64,000 nucleotides of DNA from Verrucomicrobiota bacterium (GTDB lineage: Bacteria; Verrucomicrobiota; Verrucomicrobiia; Opitutales; Opitutaceae). The DNA lies in assembly GCA_028293545.1 (NCBI GenBank), contig JAQGOP010000048.1, positions 1 to 64,000 of the forward strand. Reading direction: 5' to 3'. This document shows, piece after piece, positions 9,046-60,576 of the stretch; positions within the stretch are counted from its first letter, which is position 1; each line of letters begins with the position of its first letter. The translations under genes and the position numbers were made by a program. The notes beneath the pieces are model-generated. The model did not search any database. It was not told the DNA's origin and was given only the letters and a program-made list of their open reading frames with translations.

Positions 9046-10224
9046 ATGAAAGCCCTTCGGATTGGACTCATCGGGTCCGGCGGGCGCGGGGCTCATCTTG
9101 GCAAGGTTGCGCACGATCCGGCCCGCGGAGTGATGGTCACGGCTTGCTGCGACACCAGCCGCGACGCGCTCGACGAGAACTTGGCAGCCTTTGGCCCGAA
9201 TATTTTCACCACGTCCCGCTATCGCGATCTGCTTCGCCAGGACCTCGATGCGGTGATCGTGGCGACGCCCGACTTTTGTCACGAGGAGCATGCCGTCGCC
9301 GCCTTGTCGAAGGGACTGGCGGTGTATTTGGAAAAGCCCATGGCGATCACGGTCGAAGGCTGCGACCGCGTCCTGCGCGAAGCCGTCAAGCATCGGGCTC
9401 CGCTCTACCTCGGCCACAACATGCGCCACATGCCGTTCGTGCGGAAAATGAAAGAGCTCATCGCGAATGGCGCCATCGGCGAACCCAAGGCCTGCTGGGT
9501 CCGGCACTTCGTGGGGAATGGCGGGGATTTTTATTTCCGCGACTGGCATGCCGAGCGGCGCTTCTCGACCGGCCTGCTCCTCCAAAAAGCGGCCCACGAT
9601 ATCGACGTGATCCATTGGTTGTGCGATGGGTACAGCCGGGTGGTGAATGCGATGGGCGCGTTGGCGGTGTATGGCGACGTGGAGAAACGCCTTCCCGCCA
9701 TCCCCGGGCCGCGCCCGATTGCGCGGCCGGTGGTGCGCTTGAAAGTCTGGCCGCCCGCGACGCAGCACGGCCTGAATCATCGCATCGATGTCGAGGATCT
9801 CAGCCAGGTGCAGATGCAGTTGGACAATGGCGTGCTCGCGAATTACGCGCAGTGTCATTTTACCCCCGACTACTGGAGAAGCTACGTGGTCATCGGCACC
9901 GAGGGACGCTTGGAAAATTTCGGCAACGGCGAAAAAGGCACCTGCGTTCGATTGTGGAACACGCGGAAGCGCGGCTATGACGTCCGCGGTGACAAGACCT
10001 ATACGTTTCCCGTGCTGGCGGGCGGCCATGGTGGCGCGGACGTCAAGACGGTGGCGGAATTCGTCCGCTTTGTCCGCAAGGGCGGGACCACAGATACTTC
10101 GCCTTTGGGCGCGCGCGAAAGTGTCGCCACCGCCGTCACCGCCACCCAATCCCTGCGCTCCGGCGGGATTCCGTTGAAGGTGCCGCTCGCTGCGCCGGCG
10201 ATCGTGAAATTTTTTCAACGATGA
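9046..10224 (+). CDS. Gfo/Idh/MocA-family oxidoreductase
   Basis: 392 residues. An NAD(P)-dependent dehydrogenase of the glucose-fructose oxidoreductase/inositol dehydrogenase family, cytoplasmic. It has the Rossmann GSGGRG (residues 10-15) and the catalytic EKPMA with Lys97, followed by the usual alpha/beta C-terminal domain containing HDIDVIHW. ATG 9046 is preferred over the upstream GTG because it starts directly at the Rossmann strand. First gene of a five-gene operon: its TGA overlaps the ATG of the M20 hydrolase by 4 bases. Substrate is unknown. Family members act on sugars, inositols and also amino-group-bearing cyclic substrates. Confidence 0.9.
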   Translation: MKALRIGLIGSGGRGAHLGKVAHDPARGVMVTACCDTSRDALDENLAAFGPNIFTTSRYRDLLRQDLDAVIVATPDFCHEEHAVAALSKGLAVYLEKPMAITVEGCDRVLREAVKHRAPLYLGHNMRHMPFVRKMKELIANGAIGEPKACWVRHFVGNGGDFYFRDWHAERRFSTGLLLQKAAHDIDVIHWLCDGYSRVVNAMGALAVYGDVEKRLPAIPGPRPIARPVVRLKVWPPATQHGLNHRIDVEDLSQVQMQLDNGVLANYAQCHFTPDYWRSYVVIGTEGRLENFGNGEKGTCVRLWNTRKRGYDVRGDKTYTFPVLAGGHGGADVKTVAEFVRFVRKGGTTDTSPLGARESVATAVTATQSLRSGGIPLKVPLAAPAIVKFFQR

Positions 10225-11414
10225 CCGCGACCGCGACCGCAACGGCGCAGGCCTTGGTGCGCATCCCCAGCATCAACCCTCAGTACGATCCCGCCAGTCG
10301 CGGCGAGGGCGAAGTCTCTGCGTGGATCGAGGGCTGGGCCGCGCGGCACGGCATTGAGCTTCGGGTGGACGACGCGCTGCCCAATCGCCGCAACCTTGTG
10401 CTGACCGTGCGGAATGGTCCACCCAGGCCGCATTTCCTGTTCGCGGGCCACATGGACACCGTGGCGGTCGCTGGCATGGAGATCGCGCCGTTCGGCGGTG
10501 AGATTACGCGAGGACGTCTCTTTGGACGCGGCAGTGCCGACATGAAAGGACCGCTCGCCGCCATGTTGCACGCGTTGCTGCGGCTGCGCGACCGACGCAG
10601 TCATTGGCAAGGCACAGTGTCGGTCGCATGCGTGGTCGACGAAGAATACCTCGCGCGCGGGATCAAGGCCCTGATGGCCCGGGAGGACAGGCATTTCGAT
10701 TATGCGGTGGTCGGCGAGCCGACCGGCATGAGCGTGGTCAACGGCTGCAAGGGCTGCCTGCGTTTCACTTTCTCCGCGGAAGGCGCCGCGGCCCACAGCA
10801 GCACTCCGGCGCTGGGGCGGAATGCGATCGTCGCCATGAGCGAGGCGATCCTGGCGCTGAACCGCTTCTTCGAAACCGATCTGGGCGCGACACAGCGTCT
10901 CGCTTTCGGCAGTAGCACGGGCTCGATCGGGCTCATCAGCGGCGGTACCGGCGTCAACATTGTCGCCGGCTCCTGTCGCGCCTCCGTGGATATCCGGCTG
11001 ATTCCGGGTCAATCGTGGGAAAAAGTCTATGCCGCGGTGCAAGCCTGCGTGAGGTCGGCCGCGTCCGTCGTGGCAGGCGTCACCTGGAACTTCGAAGCCG
11101 ACCCATTTACAGATCCTTCCTTCGAAACCGCCGCCGACCATGCTCTCGTCCAAACTGCCCTCGCAGTGACCAAGGAAAAAAAGGTGCGGGTCGTCGCGTT
11201 CTGCTGCGATGCGAGCAAGATCGCCGCCGCGGGTGTGCCGTGCATCGTCCTGGGTCCGGGCGACATCGCTGAGGCGCACACGAGCGCCGAGTCGATTGGG
11301 ATCGATGAAATCGAGATGGCGGTCGAACGGTACGCCGAACTGGCGGAGCAATTGCTGGCGCCGAAAAACCCAATGGAGTTTCGCGATGATCGACCCCGAA
11401 CGCATCCGAACTGA
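10221..11414 (+). CDS. M20-family metallo-amidohydrolase/peptidase
   Basis: 397 residues. A dinuclear-zinc M20 hydrolase (ArgE/DapE/carboxypeptidase G2 group) that cleaves N-acyl or C-terminal amide bonds. The metal and catalytic residues are in place: GHMDTV with His77 and Asp79, SADMKG with bridging Asp107, DEE with the catalytic Glu141 and Glu142, and GEPTGM. The dimerisation insert is present. The ATG overlaps the preceding stop (ATGA) and the 3' end overlaps the next gene by 29 bases, so translation is coupled. The context suggests release of an amine or amino acid that the following PLP enzyme then processes. Substrate is not identifiable. Confidence 0.9.
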   Translation: MTATATATAQALVRIPSINPQYDPASRGEGEVSAWIEGWAARHGIELRVDDALPNRRNLVLTVRNGPPRPHFLFAGHMDTVAVAGMEIAPFGGEITRGRLFGRGSADMKGPLAAMLHALLRLRDRRSHWQGTVSVACVVDEEYLARGIKALMAREDRHFDYAVVGEPTGMSVVNGCKGCLRFTFSAEGAAAHSSTPALGRNAIVAMSEAILALNRFFETDLGATQRLAFGSSTGSIGLISGGTGVNIVAGSCRASVDIRLIPGQSWEKVYAAVQACVRSAASVVAGVTWNFEADPFTDPSFETAADHALVQTALAVTKEKKVRVVAFCCDASKIAAAGVPCIVLGPGDIAEAHTSAESIGIDEIEMAVERYAELAEQLLAPKNPMEFRDDRPRTHPN

Positions 11415-12528
11415 TTTTCCCTCGCTGGCCGGCCGGGCGTATTTGAACACGGCGGCCGAAGGTATTCCGTCGACTTCGGTGGGTGAGAGCCTGCGCGCTT
11501 ATTGGGAGGACAAGCTGATGGGCATGGAAGGGCGGGCCGCACATTTCAAAACCGAGGCGGAGTGTTGCGCGGTGGTGGCGCGTTCGCTGGCGATGACGCC
11601 GGAGGAGATCGGCTTCTGCTCGTGCAGCTCCGAGGCCTACAACCTGCTCGCGTCGACGTTTGATTTCGCGCCCGACGATGAGGTCGTGATCAACGATCTC
11701 GATTTTCCGTCGGGAGCGACGCCGTGGTTGGCCGGGAAAGATCGTCCGCGGGTGAGGGTATGGCGCTCGGTCGACGGTGAACTGAATTTAGACGACCTGC
11801 GTCCCTTGCTGAGCCCCCGCACGCGCCTGGTGCAGGTTTCGTTGGTGAGTTTTCTCAATGGCTATCGGATTCCCTGGGCGCCGTTCGCGGCGAGTGTGAG
11901 GGAGTCGGTGCCGACGGCCGTGATCGCGGTGGATGTGACGCAGGCGCTGGGCCGATGCGTCCTGGATTGCGCCGGCGCCGACGTCGTGATCTCCAGCACC
12001 CACAAGTGGTCGCTGGGCATCCACGGCGGTTGTGTCGTTGGGATTCGCTCCGCGGCCGCGGATCGCCTGACGGCGCGGGCTGGGGGTTGGTACAACCTCC
12101 AGGATGCATTCGGCGCGCAGCGGTTCGAACACGCGGAAGCGAAGCCCGGCGCGGCGAGTTTCGCGACGGGCATGCCGAGTTTTGCCGCGCTTTACGCGTT
12201 GAACGCGGGGCTCCGTTACCTGGAACAGGTCGGAATTGAACGCGTCGCACGATACTCGGATGCGCTGGTAGGGGAGGTTCACGCGGGCCTGCGGGAGGTT
12301 GGCCTGGCGCCGATGGCTCCGTACCGCGCGGCCTGCACCGGGGGCATCGTGACCTTTCGCCACGTCGACGCGGAAGCAATCGGCCGAGCACTCCTGGCGG
12401 ACGGCATCCACGTGATGAGCCCGGCGGGCCGGGTTCGGATCTCGCTCCACGGCTACAACACTCGCGCGGATGTCGAGCAGCTGCTGGCCTCGCTGCGGCG
12501 GATCGTCGGTCGCACCGCTTCGGCTTGA
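11386..12528 (+). CDS. Aminotransferase class V (PLP-dependent fold type I)
   Basis: 380 residues. Features: N-terminal YLNTAAEG substrate/PLP loop, VDVTQALG with the PLP-N1 aspartate (Asp183), and SSTHKWS with the Schiff-base lysine Lys207. The class V family includes cysteine desulfurases, isopenicillin-N-epimerase-like proteins, kynureninases and small-molecule aminotransferases. The desulfurase cysteine loop is not obvious, so a transaminase, epimerase or lyase role is more likely. The ATG at 11386, inside the M20 reading frame, is chosen because the protein homology begins there and GGAG precedes it. It is the third gene of the coupled operon, directly before a RidA protein, which fits production of a reactive enamine/imine. 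Confidence 0.88.
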   Translation: MIDPERIRTDFPSLAGRAYLNTAAEGIPSTSVGESLRAYWEDKLMGMEGRAAHFKTEAECCAVVARSLAMTPEEIGFCSCSSEAYNLLASTFDFAPDDEVVINDLDFPSGATPWLAGKDRPRVRVWRSVDGELNLDDLRPLLSPRTRLVQVSLVSFLNGYRIPWAPFAASVRESVPTAVIAVDVTQALGRCVLDCAGADVVISSTHKWSLGIHGGCVVGIRSAAADRLTARAGGWYNLQDAFGAQRFEHAEAKPGAASFATGMPSFAALYALNAGLRYLEQVGIERVARYSDALVGEVHAGLREVGLAPMAPYRAACTGGIVTFRHVDAEAIGRALLADGIHVMSPAGRVRISLHGYNTRADVEQLLASLRRIVGRTASA

Positions 12529-12550
12529 TCACTCCCCATTCACGGCTCCC

Positions 12551-12946
12551 ATGAAAAAAACCATCACAAAGATTCCCGGCAATCCCACTCACATCGGACC
12601 GTACTCTCCGGGCGTCATCGCTGAAGGGCGGTTCCTGTTCGTTTCCGGGCAGGGGCCGTGGGATCCCAAGGCCGATAAGTTCGACCGCGGCTCGATCGCG
12701 GATCAGACCCGCCTGACGCTCGAAACCGTGAAGCGGGTAGTCGAGGCGGCCGGCGGCCGCATGGAGGACGCGGTGAGCTGCCGGGTGTTTCTACAGCCGC
12801 TCACGCAAGAAACCTTTACCGCGATGAACGACGTCTACCGCCGATACTGGGGCGACGAAAAGCCGGCCCGCACCACTATAGGCTGCACGCTGCTCAACAT
12901 CGACGTGGAGATCGACTGCGTGATTTTGATGAAGCAAGGCGCATGA
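12551..12946 (+). CDS. RidA-family enamine/imine deaminase
   Basis: 131 residues, the usual length of RidA/YjgF/UK114 proteins, which hydrolyse enamines and imines released by PLP enzymes. It keeps the residues used by deaminating members: Arg107 (in ARTTIGC) and Glu120 (in VEIDC). It starts 22 bases after the class V PLP enzyme, and its TGA overlaps the ATG of the next gene. Its placement directly behind a PLP enzyme supports a dedicated role in clearing or steering that enzyme's product. It differs clearly in sequence from the second RidA protein at 60211. Confidence 0.93.
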   Translation: MKKTITKIPGNPTHIGPYSPGVIAEGRFLFVSGQGPWDPKADKFDRGSIADQTRLTLETVKRVVEAAGGRMEDAVSCRVFLQPLTQETFTAMNDVYRRYWGDEKPARTTIGCTLLNIDVEIDCVILMKQGA

Positions 12947-14160
12947 CCGAGCTCGAGTCCTTCCTCGCTTCATCCGTCGCCGCTCCACTTGGGGCCGAGA
13001 CCCGGCCGCAGCAGTCACCGGCCCGGATCGCAGAGTGTATTGGCCAGCTGACGACGCTCTTCGCCTTGCAGCGAGCGCTCCTGCTCGCGGCTGGAGGCTG
13101 GCTCGCGAGTGTGCCGTATTGGGATGCGAAGCTGAAGATCGGGGAACACATCCTGGAGGATGCCCATCAAGCCGAGGCGCTGCTGAAACGGCTGCACGAA
13201 CTCAAGGCCACTTCGGCGGAGCATAAACAGCCGGCGGGGTTGGACGAATTTGTGCGCGACCTGGCCTGCGCCCGCAGCGGCGACGAGTGGCTGCAGGGGT
13301 TTTATCGCGACATCAAACCATGGCTGACCGGCGAGTTTGCCCGCTACCTCGCGGCCAGCGACCCGGTGATGGATCGGCCGACGCGCGAAATCATTGAAGC
13401 GACGATCGCGGGCCTGCGCCGACAGAACGCGTGGTTTGAAACCTATGCACCTAAATTTTCCGCCTGGGAGCAACCCGACACCACGGAGTGGCGCGGCTAT
13501 CTCGGCGCGCGGCTGTCGGAAGTAACCATTGGTTCGGACGTGCGCAGGTCAGGGACCCAGTGCGCGGTGCGTCCGGAAGGCTCGGTTGATTTCATCGGCG
13601 ATCGGCCGCTGCGTCGCGATGCGGGTTTTCGCCTGGTGAACCCGGCGGGCGCGTTTCCCGCGGAGCGGACCTTCGAGGAGAAACGGCTCATGGTGTTTTT
13701 CCATCACGTGCAGGAGATGCAGTTCGCCGAATCGCTCGGGGCGATCCTCTCCGGCACCCCGGAAATGCCGTGGGCGTTTCATCACGACCTCGCCCGTCAT
13801 CTGGCGGACGAAGTGAGGCACTCCCACATGGGTGAGGAGCGCCTGGCGCAGCTCGGTATTTCGCTGGAGGAGGTGCCGATGTTTGCGGTGCACTATCAGT
13901 TCCGATCCCGCCTGCATCCGCTGGAACGGTTCGCGCTGATGACGCTGGTGATCGAAGCCGGCGCGTTCGAAAGCAAGCGGACGAACGTGCAGCTTTTCGA
14001 AGCGAACGGCGATGCGGTGTCGGCGCTGTATGAGAGTTATGACATCCGCGACGAGATGCTGCACACGAACCTGGGACACCTCTGGGTGCCGATCATGCTG
14101 CGGGTTTATCACGACTCGCGCTCCTTGCCGCAGCTCGTCGAGCACTGCCGGAATCTTTGA
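12943..14160 (+). CDS. Two-domain ferritin-like di-iron protein, putative oxygenase
   Basis: 405 residues, overwhelmingly helical, no signal peptide. The C-terminal half holds a full di-iron carboxylate set: Glu258, Glu290-V-R-His293, Glu338, Glu371-M-L-His374. The spacing (32 residues, then 48, then 33) matches the E...ExxH...E...ExxH pattern of R2-like/ferritin-like oxygenases. The N-terminal half has helices and one ExxH (Glu72-D-A-His75), which may be a degenerate second bundle. The protein is translationally coupled (ATGA) to RidA and closes the operon. I do not recognise a named family. An O2-activating role in catabolism of an N-containing compound is inferred. A non-catalytic ferritin-like fold remains possible. 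Confidence 0.7.
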   Translation: MTELESFLASSVAAPLGAETRPQQSPARIAECIGQLTTLFALQRALLLAAGGWLASVPYWDAKLKIGEHILEDAHQAEALLKRLHELKATSAEHKQPAGLDEFVRDLACARSGDEWLQGFYRDIKPWLTGEFARYLAASDPVMDRPTREIIEATIAGLRRQNAWFETYAPKFSAWEQPDTTEWRGYLGARLSEVTIGSDVRRSGTQCAVRPEGSVDFIGDRPLRRDAGFRLVNPAGAFPAERTFEEKRLMVFFHHVQEMQFAESLGAILSGTPEMPWAFHHDLARHLADEVRHSHMGEERLAQLGISLEEVPMFAVHYQFRSRLHPLERFALMTLVIEAGAFESKRTNVQLFEANGDAVSALYESYDIRDEMLHTNLGHLWVPIMLRVYHDSRSLPQLVEHCRNL

Positions 14161-14241: not shown

Positions 14242-15264
14242 TCAGAGAGCGGTGCTATTCGCGGGCATCCAGTCGCCGCGCAGGCTCAAGTGCCGGGCGC
14301 GTTCCGGGACGCCTGCCTCGTTCATGTGAAGCTGCGAAACCAGGAGGTCGACGGCGCTCTCGGCGATGAGGTCGTGGCGAAACCTGATGCCAGGAAGAAG
14401 GCGATGGCTAGCTTCCCAGTTAAGCGTCACCAGGCGCCGGCCGCGGAAGGCTCCCGGGTTGAGCGCCATGCAGGCATCATAAGTGCGGTTGGTGCCGAAG
14501 ATCACGCTGTCGGCCTGGTTGGCATCCAGCCACGGGAAGAAGTCTCCCAGGTTAGTGCCTTGGGCGAAGAAGATTAATTTTCGGGCTTTTGCCGGATGTG
14601 GATGGTGCGTGAGAAAAGCCGCCTCCTGGGCAAAATCGGTGCGCTGATTGATTTCGGAGGAGAAAATCGCGGCGGGTTTTTTAGCGCCCATCAGCGCCAG
14701 CTGGTCCAGGCACTCATGCACAGCGTGATAATGATTCGAAATGCAGCGATGCATCTCCGGCGTCCATTGCGCGTGGCCAAGCACCACGGTGACAAACCGA
14801 TTCCAGTCGAGGCTCGGTTCGAGGGACGAGCCATGCAGTGCCGGCGCAAAGACGATCCCGCGGATATTCCGGGTGGCGAGGATCGTCGACATGCGCGCGC
14901 CGGAAAGATTGTCCTCCTCCATCCAGAACTGCTCCAGGCCAAAGCCCAACGCGCGCGCGCGACTGCCGACCGCGGTGAAAATATCCCGGCAAAATTCCGT
15001 GGTCTTGATGTGGTTCCGACTGCCGTGCGGCCAGATGAGCGCGATGTTCTCGACGGTCCGGACCTTCCGGCCCTGCCCGATGACGGACATCAACGCAGAA
15101 ATGTGCGGGTTCCGCCGATAACCCAGCGTCTCCGCGATCGCCTGGATGCGCCGGCAGGTTTCGACCGGGATACGCGGATGGTTTCTCAGCGCGTAGGAAA
15201 CTGTGGACAGCGACACCTCTGCGGCGCGGGCGATATCTTTGACGGTACAATACTTGCGGGCCAT
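14242..15264 (-). CDS. LacI-family transcriptional regulator 1
   Basis: 340 residues from ATG 15264. The N-terminal LacI helix-turn-helix is at residues about 7-26 (VKDIARAAEVSLSTVSYAL), followed by the verrucomicrobial-type linker RRNPHISALM in place of the classical hinge helix, then a periplasmic-binding-protein-like effector domain (FAPALHG..., VVLGHAQW...). It is convergent with the five-gene operon and divergent from the gene at 15391. A GAACGGTTTC palindrome begins at the base next to its start codon, which suggests autoregulation and makes it the best candidate to bind all motif 1 sites. A sugar-like effector is expected from the family. Confidence 0.92.
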   Translation of the reverse strand: MARKYCTVKDIARAAEVSLSTVSYALRNHPRIPVETCRRIQAIAETLGYRRNPHISALMSVIGQGRKVRTVENIALIWPHGSRNHIKTTEFCRDIFTAVGSRARALGFGLEQFWMEEDNLSGARMSTILATRNIRGIVFAPALHGSSLEPSLDWNRFVTVVLGHAQWTPEMHRCISNHYHAVHECLDQLALMGAKKPAAIFSSEINQRTDFAQEAAFLTHHPHPAKARKLIFFAQGTNLGDFFPWLDANQADSVIFGTNRTYDACMALNPGAFRGRRLVTLNWEASHRLLPGIRFRHDLIAESAVDLLVSQLHMNEAGVPERARHLSLRGDWMPANSTAL

Positions 15265-15280
15265 GCCGAACGGTTTCGCT
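15265..15280 (+). promoter_or_regulatory. Putative operator motif 1 at the LacI start codon
   Basis: GCCGAACGGTTTCGCT, adjoining the ATG (15262-15264, reverse strand) of the LacI gene and within the 126-base divergent promoter shared with the gene at 15391. Binding here would block LacI translation initiation or transcription and could also control the divergent gene. Role inferred. Confidence 0.6.
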
Positions 15281-15390
15281 AACGGCGGGATTATGCCAAC
15301 GAAATTATTGAGCGAGACTGGGATCCCATCTGCTCTTTCCTTCCCGCGACTACCGGCCGATCGATCGGCTGCGCCCAATAAAATCCATCC

Positions 15391-16326
15391 ATGAAACATG
15401 TCACCGCGAGGGGTAACGAGCCTGCGAAGAATCACTGGAAGAATGTCCTGACCCTGGACCGTGAACGCCGTCTGGTGTCGGGCACGGCTGAGGCGTTGGT
15501 CGCGGCGATCAGGCGGGGCGCCGACCTGCGGGTCTATACTGAATTCCGGCACAACGAGCACATCGACACGACCTCCACCGACGCACAGCTGATCAAGGAG
15601 GCAGCCGATTTCAGAGTCACCTACCTGCTGGAGGACCGCTGGGTCGCAGGCATCATCAATCTCCGCCAACCCATCGAACTGCCGATAGGATTCGGCCCGC
15701 GGCCTTCAATGTCGTTTTTCCTCTATAACCAGGATGGCAAGCAGGCCATTGCCCGACCCTATTTGGACGGACAGCCGGCGACGGGAGGCCCGGGACCCTC
15801 GCCCTTGGACGACCACAGCCAGATGCCCAAGTATCATCAGTCCGATGCCTGGGATCAGCGCACGAATGCGCCGAGCAGCAATTTTGCCTACGACTTTGAA
15901 GTGTATAAATACTGGGTGTGCGACGACTGGCAGGAGGTCCTCGCGCACACCGCCGAGGGGAAGGTCGATTCCGGCAGCGTCGGCGCACTCGAGGAAGCTT
16001 TCGCGGGCGGCCGCGAAGTAAAGGTCGGCATTGTGGGATTGTGTGCGGACCTCGCGGGTGCATCTGCCGAGGTGGTGAGCCATGAGGTCTTTGTTCACTG
16101 TGGCTCCTGTTACTATTACACGGAGAGCAAACTCTTCATGGCTGCGGCCCAGCCCGTCGTGCGCGTGCAGCCCGCGATCCCGCTTCGCTATCGAAGCGAG
16201 GGATGGGATTTCGGGTGGTTGATGCCGCGGACAGACGGGCATGTGGCGCGGTGGCTACTGGATCCGTACACGCTGAAATTTAGCCGGAGCAACCAGCGGC
16301 ATGCGATCCGTTGGTTTGTGCGCTAG
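15391..16326 (+). CDS. Conserved-looking protein of unknown function
   Basis: 311 residues, no signal peptide and no membrane segment. I do not recognise a domain. The sequence is rich in aromatic and charged residues (for example RVYTEFRHNEHIDTT, VHCGSCYYYTESK) and looks like a compact beta-rich globular protein. It is divergent from the LacI regulator with a motif 1 operator between them, so it probably belongs to the same catabolic regulon. Downstream is a 292-base gap with another operator, then the propeller protein. A carbohydrate-related enzyme is possible, but no catalytic motif can be named. Confidence 0.75.
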   Translation: MKHVTARGNEPAKNHWKNVLTLDRERRLVSGTAEALVAAIRRGADLRVYTEFRHNEHIDTTSTDAQLIKEAADFRVTYLLEDRWVAGIINLRQPIELPIGFGPRPSMSFFLYNQDGKQAIARPYLDGQPATGGPGPSPLDDHSQMPKYHQSDAWDQRTNAPSSNFAYDFEVYKYWVCDDWQEVLAHTAEGKVDSGSVGALEEAFAGGREVKVGIVGLCADLAGASAEVVSHEVFVHCGSCYYYTESKLFMAAAQPVVRVQPAIPLRYRSEGWDFGWLMPRTDGHVARWLLDPYTLKFSRSNQRHAIRWFVR

Positions 16327-16618: not shown

Positions 16619-18220
16619 ATGAAACTCACCTCCTCCTGGCATCTGTTGGTCCTGTTTTCGCTGGCGGTTCGCGGGCTTGTCGCCGGACCGCCCGTCGCTA
16701 GGTCTTCGGCGGTGATCGACCTGGGGTCGCGCCGGGAGTTGTTTCTCGACGACTATCTCGTGGAGAAACTCTCCGGCGGCGCGGAACGGCGCTTGAATCA
16801 TCCCGTGCCGCAAAACCTGTGCCTGACGTTTGACCAGCCTTGGGAAGGCAATGGCAGCGGCGGCTACGCGAGCATCTTCCAGGACGGCCCGCTGTACCGG
16901 ATGTACTATACGGCGTATCAGATCGATGCGGTGAAGGAGGCGAGCGGCGGCAAGATTGCGCCTCCGCATCCGTTGTACACGTGCTATGCCGAGAGCGACG
17001 ATGGGATCAGCTGGCGCAAGCCCGAGCTCGGGCTGCACGAGTTCCAAGGATCCAAGCGCAACAACATCGTCTTGGTCACCGAGGTCGTTGGCGAGTATAA
17101 GATCAACGCGGGGCATGTCGCGATTTTCAAGGACGAGAATCCGAACGCCGCGCCCGAGGCACGGTACAAGGGATTTGTCCGGTCGGATACGTTGAAGAAA
17201 AGACCGTTGCCCACCGGGTTGCTCGCCTACCAGTCCGCGGACGGACTGCACTGGTCGCGGATGCGGGCAAAGCCGGTGATCACCTTCGGCGCGTTTGATT
17301 CGCAGAACCTCGGTTTTTGGGATGGGGCGCGCGGGGAATACCGGGCGTACTGGCGCTACGACACGGCGGGTATCACCAATGAGAACATCTGGGAGCCGGC
17401 CGGGGTCCGGGCGATCCGCACCGCCACTTCCCCGGACTATGTCAACTGGAGCACGCCGGTGAATCTCAGCTACCCCACGAGCAATCCCGAGGAGCATCTA
17501 TATACCAACCAGATCAAACCCTATGCGCGGGCGCCGCATCTGCTCATCGGTTTTCCCACGCGCTATGTTGATCGCGGCTGGTCCGACGTGATGCGGGAGA
17601 TGCCCGACTTGGAAGCGCGGGAAGAAAGGTCCGTGGCCAACAAGCGCTATGGGACGGCCGTGACCGAAGGCTTGATCATGTCGAGCCGCGATGGCGTTTC
17701 ATTCCAGCGTTGGAACGAGGCCTTCCTGCGTCCCGGCATCGAGCGCCCGGGCACCTGGACCTACGGCGATCACTACCTCAGCTGGCACTTGGTCGAAACC
17801 AAATCTTCCTTCGAAGGCGCTCCGAACGAGCTCTCCCTCTACGCCTCCGAGTCCTACTGGAAGGGATCGAGCAGCATGCTGCGCCGGTATACCTTGCGGC
17901 TCGACGGATTCGTCTCGGCGTCGGCGCCGATGAGCGGCGGCGAGTTGGTGACGAAGCCCTTTCGTTTTCGCGGCCATGAGCTCTCGCTGAATTGCGCCAC
18001 CTCGGCGGCCGGCAGCGTACGCGTCGAGATCCAGGATATGAGCGGCCAGCCGCTGCCGGGATTTGCGCTCAGTGACTGCGCCATGCTTTTCGGCGACACG
18101 ATTGGACGCACGGTGCGCTGGGCCAAGGGCCGCGACGTGAGTGCGCTCGCCGGCCAGGTGATCCGGCTGCGATTCGAACTGAAGGACGCGGACCTCTACT
18201 CCTACAAATTCCAGGAATAG
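16619..18220 (+). CDS. Secreted GH32/43-like beta-propeller protein
   Basis: 533 residues with a Sec signal peptide (MKLTSSWHLLVLFSLAVRG; cleavage near LVAGPP). The body has repeating strands of a five-bladed propeller, with blade-like elements such as GSGGYASIFQDGPLYRMYYTAY, YAESDDGISWRKPE, YQSADGLHWSR and MSSRDGVSF. This matches planctomycete/verrucomicrobial proteins annotated as GH32/43-like or sialidase-like. The C-terminal about 80 residues form an additional beta-sandwich (VRVEIQDMSG). It probably binds or cleaves glycans in the periplasm or outside. No catalytic acid pair can be assigned with certainty. A motif 1 operator precedes it and a hairpin follows it. Confidence 0.75.
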   Translation: MKLTSSWHLLVLFSLAVRGLVAGPPVARSSAVIDLGSRRELFLDDYLVEKLSGGAERRLNHPVPQNLCLTFDQPWEGNGSGGYASIFQDGPLYRMYYTAYQIDAVKEASGGKIAPPHPLYTCYAESDDGISWRKPELGLHEFQGSKRNNIVLVTEVVGEYKINAGHVAIFKDENPNAAPEARYKGFVRSDTLKKRPLPTGLLAYQSADGLHWSRMRAKPVITFGAFDSQNLGFWDGARGEYRAYWRYDTAGITNENIWEPAGVRAIRTATSPDYVNWSTPVNLSYPTSNPEEHLYTNQIKPYARAPHLLIGFPTRYVDRGWSDVMREMPDLEAREERSVANKRYGTAVTEGLIMSSRDGVSFQRWNEAFLRPGIERPGTWTYGDHYLSWHLVETKSSFEGAPNELSLYASESYWKGSSSMLRRYTLRLDGFVSASAPMSGGELVTKPFRFRGHELSLNCATSAAGSVRVEIQDMSGQPLPGFALSDCAMLFGDTIGRTVRWAKGRDVSALAGQVIRLRFELKDADLYSYKFQE

Positions 18221-60210: not shown

Positions 60211-60576
60211 ATGAAACTCATCGACACCGATCCCGATTTTCCAATCAGCTCCGCGGTCATCACGCAGGGCCGTCTCCTCGAAGCCGTGATCGTCGGCATT
60301 CGCCCGGAAGAATCGAAACCCGTCGGGGGCGGCGCTGCGGCGGAGATGGCCGAGATCTTCCGCCAGTTGGACGCTCTGCTCCAATCACAGGGTTTGGCCC
60401 GGTCGCACGTCGCCTCGGTCCGCCTCTATCTCCAGCACGTGAACCGCGACATTCCCGAGGTAAACCGCATCTACCGGGAATACTTCGGCGGTCACGCGCC
60501 CTGTCGCCGTGGCTATGGTGTCGATCTGCAGGCGGGGCTCATGGTCGAGGCGGCCTTTGTCGTGGAATTTCCCTGA
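60211..60576 (+). CDS. RidA-family protein
   Basis: 121 residues with the RidA chorismate-mutase-like fold: EMAEIFRQLDALLQSQGLARSHVASVRLYL central helix and strand, active-site Arg100 (in CRRGYGV) and Glu113 (in MVEAAF). It hydrolyses reactive imines or enamines, or acts as a ligand-binding relative. It is transcribed alone, divergent from the hydroxyacid dehydrogenase, and may come under the same motif 2 operator 305 bases away. It is closer to the general YjgF-like class than to the RidA in the five-gene operon. Confidence 0.88.
   Translation: MKLIDTDPDFPISSAVITQGRLLEAVIVGIRPEESKPVGGGAAAEMAEIFRQLDALLQSQGLARSHVASVRLYLQHVNRDIPEVNRIYREYFGGHAPCRRGYGVDLQAGLMVEAAFVVEFP

Follow-up and report, generated by a model that had tools for sequence, protein, structure and literature searches.

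Five tightly packed genes that end in a putative di-iron protein raise the question of whether they serve a single metabolic route, and which substrate such a route would act on. The genes lie on the plus strand of a stretch of 64,000 nucleotides (hereafter the window; positions 1 to 64,000 of contig JAQGOP010000048.1, assembly GCA_028293545.1) from a Verrucomicrobiota bacterium of the family Opitutaceae; the window is part of contig C3 in an assembly of 3.96 Mb in 63 contigs. In order, they encode a Gfo/Idh/MocA oxidoreductase of 392 amino acids (gene A, 9046–10224; PF01408, PF22725, PF02894), an M20 amidohydrolase of the ArgE/DapE kind with 397 (gene B, 10221–11414; PF01546, PF07687), a class V pyridoxal 5′-phosphate (PLP) enzyme with 380 (gene C, 11386–12528; PF00266), a RidA-type protein with 131, expected to be an imine deaminase (gene D, 12551–12946; PF01042), and a DUF455 ferritin-like putative di-iron protein with 405 (gene E, 12943–14160; PF04305). 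Comparison with other genomes bore out two components of this operon: a deacylase–PLP enzyme pair that recurs, and a widespread putative di-iron family that is often found among sugar-acid genes.

The packing reported in the original prediction, with its overlaps and one 22-base gap, was confirmed at 9046–14160, as were the families it assigned. A and B share an ATGA overlap of 4 bases, as do D and E, B and C overlap by 29 bases, and C and D are separated by 22 bases. From gene order and overlaps, A–E look like one transcription unit. Scans of the sequence returned 0 promoter-like sites (1.4 expected) and 7 terminator-like sites (7.2 expected), both uninformative, and base composition showed no sharp break at the operon. 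All five proteins scored above the Pfam gathering cut-off of their own family and are therefore not chance frames. Every NCBIfam match listed for A–E fell below its cut-off (for B, 25 of the 56 matched models were listed) and no NCBIfam model matched E, so that family membership gives no substrate.

In B, the motifs HxD, DxK, DEE, EPT and the last AH, which we presume to have their usual catalytic roles, were kept across a six-row alignment. Its best NCBIfam match was TIGR01892 (ArgE) at 202.1 bits, short of the cut-off of 297.7, followed by TIGR01910 (DapE-ArgE) at 201.1 bits, where the cut-off of 217.6 was likewise not reached. In C, residues D183, Q186, K207 and R351 were kept in 11 of 11 aligned rows, the window included; K207 (12004–12006, plus strand) is presumably the PLP-binding lysine, as in other class V enzymes.

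The M20–PLP pair was found beyond the window. For many genomes, the family and phylum searches scored no more than a subset of the first-look candidates, and their counts are lower bounds. C matched 9 of 252 genomes of the bacterial family (E ≤ 1e-30, own included), with six matches, all in genus g7, at 56–59% identity and two others at 28 and 31%. In the phylum it matched 6 of 367 genomes (E ≤ 1e-45, own included), the other five lying outside the family at 51–57%. Orthologues of C thus amounted to 11 loci with 51–59% identity, and at five of them (L088, L089, L091, L092, L215) an M20 gene with 35–38% identity to B was located within 2.6 kb of C, centre to centre. B itself matched 6 of the 252 family genomes (E ≤ 1e-55, own included); four of these matches were M20–C pair loci and the remaining one was a 3 kb contig without C. 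A pattern of C also hit 21 stretches of viral contigs, and no relative was encoded in any of them. Because the pair recurs in two families, including another genus and another family than those of the window, gene content suggests that deacylation and subsequent PLP chemistry form a genuine module, and this part of the coherent deacylation, PLP and imine route originally proposed held up.

The neighbours of the pair give a hint of its substrate. A major facilitator superfamily (MFS) gene stood beside C at all five pair loci (identified by Pfam at L088 and L089, by NCBIfam at L092, and by eye at L091 and L215). Three of them (L088 and L091 by Pfam, L215 by eye) also had an Amidohydro_2 gene near the pair; none was recognised at L089 or L092. 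The best NCBIfam match of the three MFS proteins tested was the D-galactonate transporter model (160.8, 222.6 and 152.1 bits; cut-off 395), and the one Amidohydro_2 hydrolase tested matched sulfomuconolactone hydrolase (63.2 bits) and L-fuconolactonase (58.4 bits; cut-offs 500 and 400). These matches, all sub-threshold, suggest sugar-acid transport and lactone opening around the pair.

The reaction of C was examined through its solved relatives. By sequence, the best cysteine desulfurase scored 61.5 bits, followed by FGM3 (45.2), UstD (35.4) and kynureninase (24.3); the C-DES cystine lyase and hercynylcysteine sulfoxide lyase were also among the relatives. In a fold search with a model of C (pLDDT, predicted local distance difference test, 76.8; residues 231–262 unreliable), the first 42 matches were all desulfurases or C–S lyases, C-DES among them. 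C reached 79.4 bits against a SufS-type NCBIfam model with a cut-off of 475.1. It has no cysteine after residue 317 of 380, that is, none in the last 63 residues, where we assume the catalytic cysteine of SufS to be expected near the C-terminus, and cysteine desulfurase was rejected as its function for lack of this C-terminal cysteine. The presence of FGM3, UstD and kynureninase among the relatives would fit a lyase or aldolase that acts at C-beta/C-gamma, as these three presumably do; its substrate would be an amino acid with a gamma-hydroxy or gamma-keto group, and the cleavage would leave an enamine for D to handle. Position 107 of C, a phenylalanine in 8 of 11 rows, where desulfurases presumably have histidine, points the same way. 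However, the position-107 argument depends on that presumed histidine, the best cysteine desulfurase scores higher than any of the three, and no lyase of this kind appears in those 42 fold matches, which makes a C–C bond cleavage by C decidedly improbable.

D scored 89.4 bits against PF01042 and 88.7 bits against NCBIfam TIGR00004, below the cut-off of 106.25, and it keeps the arginine of the PAR motif when aligned with two solved Rid-family proteins, including PH0854. A second Rid-family gene is present in the window at 60211–60576 (PF01042, 38.7 bits). According to excerpts of a published study, RidA genes cluster with PLP enzymes that release enamines and with enzymes able to form 2-aminoacrylate (PMC4433059). 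The latter association and the presence of cysteine desulfurases, C-DES and hercynylcysteine sulfoxide lyase among the relatives of C would also agree with sulfur salvage, in which B would deacetylate a mercapturate-like N-acetyl-S-conjugate, C would act as a cysteine-S-conjugate beta-lyase, D would hydrolyse 2-aminoacrylate and E would oxidise the freed organosulfur part. Such a route is improbable in our view, as no sulfur-specific gene was recognised in the operon, the M20–PLP pair has neighbours of the sugar-acid type (the galactonate-type MFS and lactonase-like proteins, with their sub-threshold scores), and many relatives of E lie near HpcH/HpaI aldolases, as described below.

E matched PF04305 with 46.2 bits (gathering cut-off 34.3) and carries an E/ExxH/E/ExxH ligand set. 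The expected metal ligands are E258 (13714–13716), E290-x-x-H293 (13810–13821), E338 (13954–13956) and E371-x-x-H374 (14053–14064), all on the plus strand. The six residues were invariant in alignment A1, which comprised 27 of 39 homologues; the 12 left out included a truncated copy of the gene in the window, a partial sequence, two distant ones and seven close to rows already in. In a wider count, all six were kept in 79 of 79 rows, namely 78 distinct sequences from 127 matched loci (one dropped as too short) plus the window row, in which genes fetched in two loci, the window's own included, may count twice. The original prediction had depended on these ligands being conserved among homologues of E, and it withstood this check. 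In the N-terminal half, R83 was kept in 79 of 79 rows and E86 in 77 of 79. The catalytic residues of all five enzymes had been described as intact, and this agreed with the aligned residues of B, C and D and the ligands of E, while the EKP motif of A was present by eye only.

The AlphaFold2 model of E was almost wholly helical, with a mean pLDDT of 89.9 and a predicted template modelling score (pTM) of 0.88. Foldseek searches of the PDB with this model returned ferritins, bacterioferritins and PaaC, mostly with probabilities of 0.94–1.00, but with weak E-values (best 0.048 overall; 0.23 and up for the chains named ferritin, bacterioferritin or PaaC). Family, motif and model together are the basis for taking E as a putative di-iron protein with a probable ferritin-like fold. 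A hemocyanin match (6.5e-5) consisted of scattered short matches around an EMPWAF word and was taken as chance. No function for DUF455 (PF04305) was found in the excerpts of the literature searched on this family. The genome of the window has five places that match E (on contigs C3, C46, C30, C15 and C39), and the Pfam search listed four, three above the cut-off.

DUF455 relatives were found in 130 of the 252 family genomes by a profile built from nine of them (E ≤ 1e-40). To describe their setting, we used 49 regions (40 from the upper part of the profile list and nine from other searches, some being contigs of 3–4 kb) and, as controls, 18 others, of which 12 surround relatives of A and six surround C in g7. 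The gene caller was crude and missed DUF455 in 9 of 49 regions (window in, L071 out); the neighbour counts were redone by tblastn on 49 regions (L071 in, window out). Of the 49 regions, 22 had an HpcH/HpaI aldolase no more than 6.5 kb from DUF455, compared to 0 of 18 controls; 20 of these 22 aldolase regions also had a second, divergent Gfo/Idh-like gene within 6.5 kb. One gene order was Gfo/Idh, DUF455, Gfo/Idh-like, aldolase and short-chain dehydrogenase/reductase (SDR), as in L138 (3299–11323), L174–L178, L184 and L189; in another, DUF455 closed the group or followed it (L064, L065, L196). L172, 46% identical to E, and L139 had the aldolase without the second Gfo/Idh-like gene. In the window's own genome, a 2-keto-3-deoxy-6-phosphogluconate (KDPG) aldolase was located 3.2 kb from a paralogue of E. 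In L077, a NagB-like protein adjoins DUF455. RidA matches near DUF455 numbered two among L140–L209 (L193 at ~3.3 kb and L191 at ~7 kb). The group of Gfo/Idh, DUF455, Gfo/Idh-like, HpcH/HpaI and SDR genes has the appearance of a sugar-acid route not yet described, one step of which would fall to a putative di-iron protein.

No dehydratase or lactonase was recognised in this group (judged by eye, with some genes tested), for example in L138 and L177, and a step may therefore be unassigned. It might be carried out by E itself, as an O2-independent metal enzyme, such as a sugar-acid isomerase, dehydratase or lactonase on a ferritin-like fold. This is quite unlikely, however: O2 or peroxide is the usual reaction partner of proteins with the E/ExxH/E/ExxH ligand set, and we know of no ferritin-like isomerase or dehydratase.

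Several other genes were observed around DUF455. Directly upstream of the DUF455 gene of L077, positions 159–2063 encode a glucosamine-6-phosphate isomerase-type domain fused to a PIG-L de-N-acetylase domain. A GntR-type gene was seen by eye in 9 of 49 regions. A DUF455 gene of another subfamily adjoins a PhyH gene (Pfam) at L061:8306–10566, and PhyH-like genes were seen by eye in L139 and L177. Two proteins without a Pfam match at 0.001 have relatives beside DUF455, L187:12362–14080 in five regions and L177:13640–14326 in six.

The check set for the five-gene synteny gave a negative result. The complete set A–E was found in no other genome examined and was rejected as a conserved system; only the M20–PLP pair recurs, at 5 of 11 C loci. 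E itself matched 5 of 387 phylum genomes (E ≤ 1e-30, own included). Its best relative, in G316, was 55.6% identical over 390 residues by tblastn (57% in the phylum search); this gene follows a NanM-like kelch protein and a sodium:solute symporter and adjoins an AraC-type regulator. A pattern-based scan of an 84,980-genome collection yielded two loci, L077 and L078, at 44 and 46%, and a fourth relative, L182, was 45% identical. A–D had no tblastn match in the available flanks of these four closest relatives (55.6, 46, 45 and 44%), and D and E had none at any of the 11 C-orthologue loci. At those loci, A had weak similarity at L087 and L218 only, and the Gfo/Idh-type gene of L088 is no close relative of A. 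One contig of G483 carries the C and M20 genes and, ~9 kb away, a DUF455 gene.

Relatives of A were present in 30 of 252 family genomes (E ≤ 1e-50, own included) with 60–67% identity, and in 11 of 11 genomes of the same genus. The window's genome has a second copy, 66% identical, at G000:C16:62352 (L125), which lies among genes for an esterase, a PhyH protein (Pfam match) and, as judged by eye, an AraC-type protein, and B–E were absent from the 12 regions examined around relatives of A. The operon is a recurring B–C pair joined by Gfo/Idh, RidA and DUF455 genes that are found in other settings. The coupling of the five genes, originally taken to imply one pathway, is consistent with a likely single transcription unit; a conserved five-gene pathway was not supported. 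The operon was apparently put together locally, as a catabolic operon, from parts found separately in related genomes.

Such an assembly could also be a co-regulated patchwork in which E, possibly together with A, works outside the pathway of B–D, in general sugar-acid metabolism or in the handling of iron or peroxide. The varied settings of DUF455 relatives, the flanks of the four closest relatives of E, which hold no match to A–D, and the second copy of A in another setting are compatible with this. On the other side, the reading frames of D and E share four bases, and the neighbours of many DUF455 relatives, partly assigned by eye, are catabolic genes and not genes for iron or stress. We regard a separate role of E as unlikely.

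We tentatively propose, at somewhat less than an even chance, that the operon is catabolic and converts an N-acyl amino-sugar acid to a 2-keto-3-deoxy acid, with DUF455 acting on the sugar or keto acid. A would oxidise an amino sugar upstream, and B would deacylate an N-acyl amino acid, for which an N-acetylated amino-sugar acid (an aldonic acid) is the most likely candidate. C, as a PLP enzyme without the desulfurase cysteine, would catalyse elimination from, or deamination of, the free amino acid, and D would hydrolyse the resulting enamine or imine to a 2-keto-3-deoxy acid and ammonia. Compounds of this kind are, we assume, what the aldolases near DUF455 relatives use. E may be a di-iron enzyme that acts on the sugar acid or keto acid, possibly with O2. 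We favour this proposal because the setting of the M20–PLP pair and that of E agree in pointing to a sugar acid; the substrate, the order of steps, the metal and the use of O2 are the parts of it that we infer.

Several observations weigh against this proposal. The five-gene set is unique to this genome among those examined, and the operon contains no recognisable gene for a sugar kinase, an aldolase or a dehydratase. M20 was not seen in the available flanks at 6 of 11 C loci; these flanks extend at least 2.7 kb in both directions at L216, L217 and L218, and a contig end cuts one flank at L087, L090 and L219 (within 0.2, 0.1 and 0.9 kb, respectively). The nearest solved relatives of C in both sequence and fold are cysteine desulfurases, with C–S lyases among the matches, and a sulfur amino acid substrate would fit them too. 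The 49 DUF455 regions are related loci with baits taken from such loci, so that the 22 aldolase regions are not independent events, and no HpcH/HpaI match was seen within 6.5 kb in the other 27, some of them short contigs.

If the proposal is true, the operon would represent a second solution, with unrelated enzymes, for the direct deacetylation and deamination of amino-sugar acids. It would also offer a first context in which to test DUF455, whose putative di-iron motif is invariant and whose relatives occur in about half of the family genomes searched. A broader claim, that DUF455 is a new di-iron enzyme family of sugar-acid catabolism, widespread in the bacterial family, and that the window holds a new amino-sugar-acid route with M20, class V PLP, RidA and DUF455 steps, is more doubtful, and we lean against it at present.

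Downstream of the operon and convergent with it, a LacI-type gene (14242–15264, minus strand; PF00356), whose start was placed from the LacI domain inside a longer frame (14242–15669), is a candidate regulator only. A further gene of the window, at 16619–18220, encodes a 533-residue protein without a Pfam or NCBIfam match at 0.001; its relatives were near DUF455 in six regions, the window included.

Parts of the operon resemble known systems. ArgE/DapE M20 deacylases provide the best family matches of B, which shares their M20 domains and is below the NCBIfam cut-offs among the matches listed. SufS-type desulfurases and C–S lyases have their fold and PLP-site residues in common with C; unlike SufS, with its catalytic cysteine presumably near the C-terminus, C has a cysteine-free end. 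According to excerpts of a study on Natrarchaeobius, a predicted route for N-acetylglucosamine (GlcNAc) proceeds by deacetylation and oxidation to glucosaminate, for which a PLP-type ammonia-lyase is proposed, and the clusters hold a RidA-type gene (RutC-family there), as does this operon (PMC12343721). That route, a prediction only, would use a CE14 deacetylase and a homologue of glucosaminate-6-phosphate ammonia-lyase, in place of the M20 and class V enzymes found here (PMC12343721, excerpts).

The closest parallel is the ong cluster of the oxidative chitin pathway in Pseudoalteromonas prydzensis, in which OngB, OngC and OngD convert N-acetylglucosaminate (GlcNAc1A) to 2-keto-3-deoxygluconate (KDG), as described in excerpts of PMC9537276, the source for all that follows on ong. 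The original prediction knew of no characterised pathway with the five-gene set; this is fair for the set, but the logic of a deacetylase, a PLP deaminase and a RidA protein is published there for N-acetylglucosaminate. Like this operon, the ong cluster encodes an N-deacetylase, a PLP deaminase and a RidA-family protein together (OngD there, D here), and its route, like that proposed for B–C–D, runs through deacetylation and deamination without prior phosphorylation. The enzymes differ: OngB is closest to D-aminoacylases, whereas B belongs to M20, and OngC is of fold type III, whereas C is a class V enzyme (PF00266) with SufS-type fold matches. Gfo/Idh and DUF455 genes, present here, are not named for ong in these excerpts, and this operon has no sugar kinase, hexosaminidase or sodium:solute symporter gene, unlike ong. 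Because the enzyme families differ (M20 and class V instead of the D-aminoacylase kind and fold type III), the operon is not a member of the ong pathway. The putative B–C–D logic nevertheless matches the published ong route, with other protein families carrying it out.

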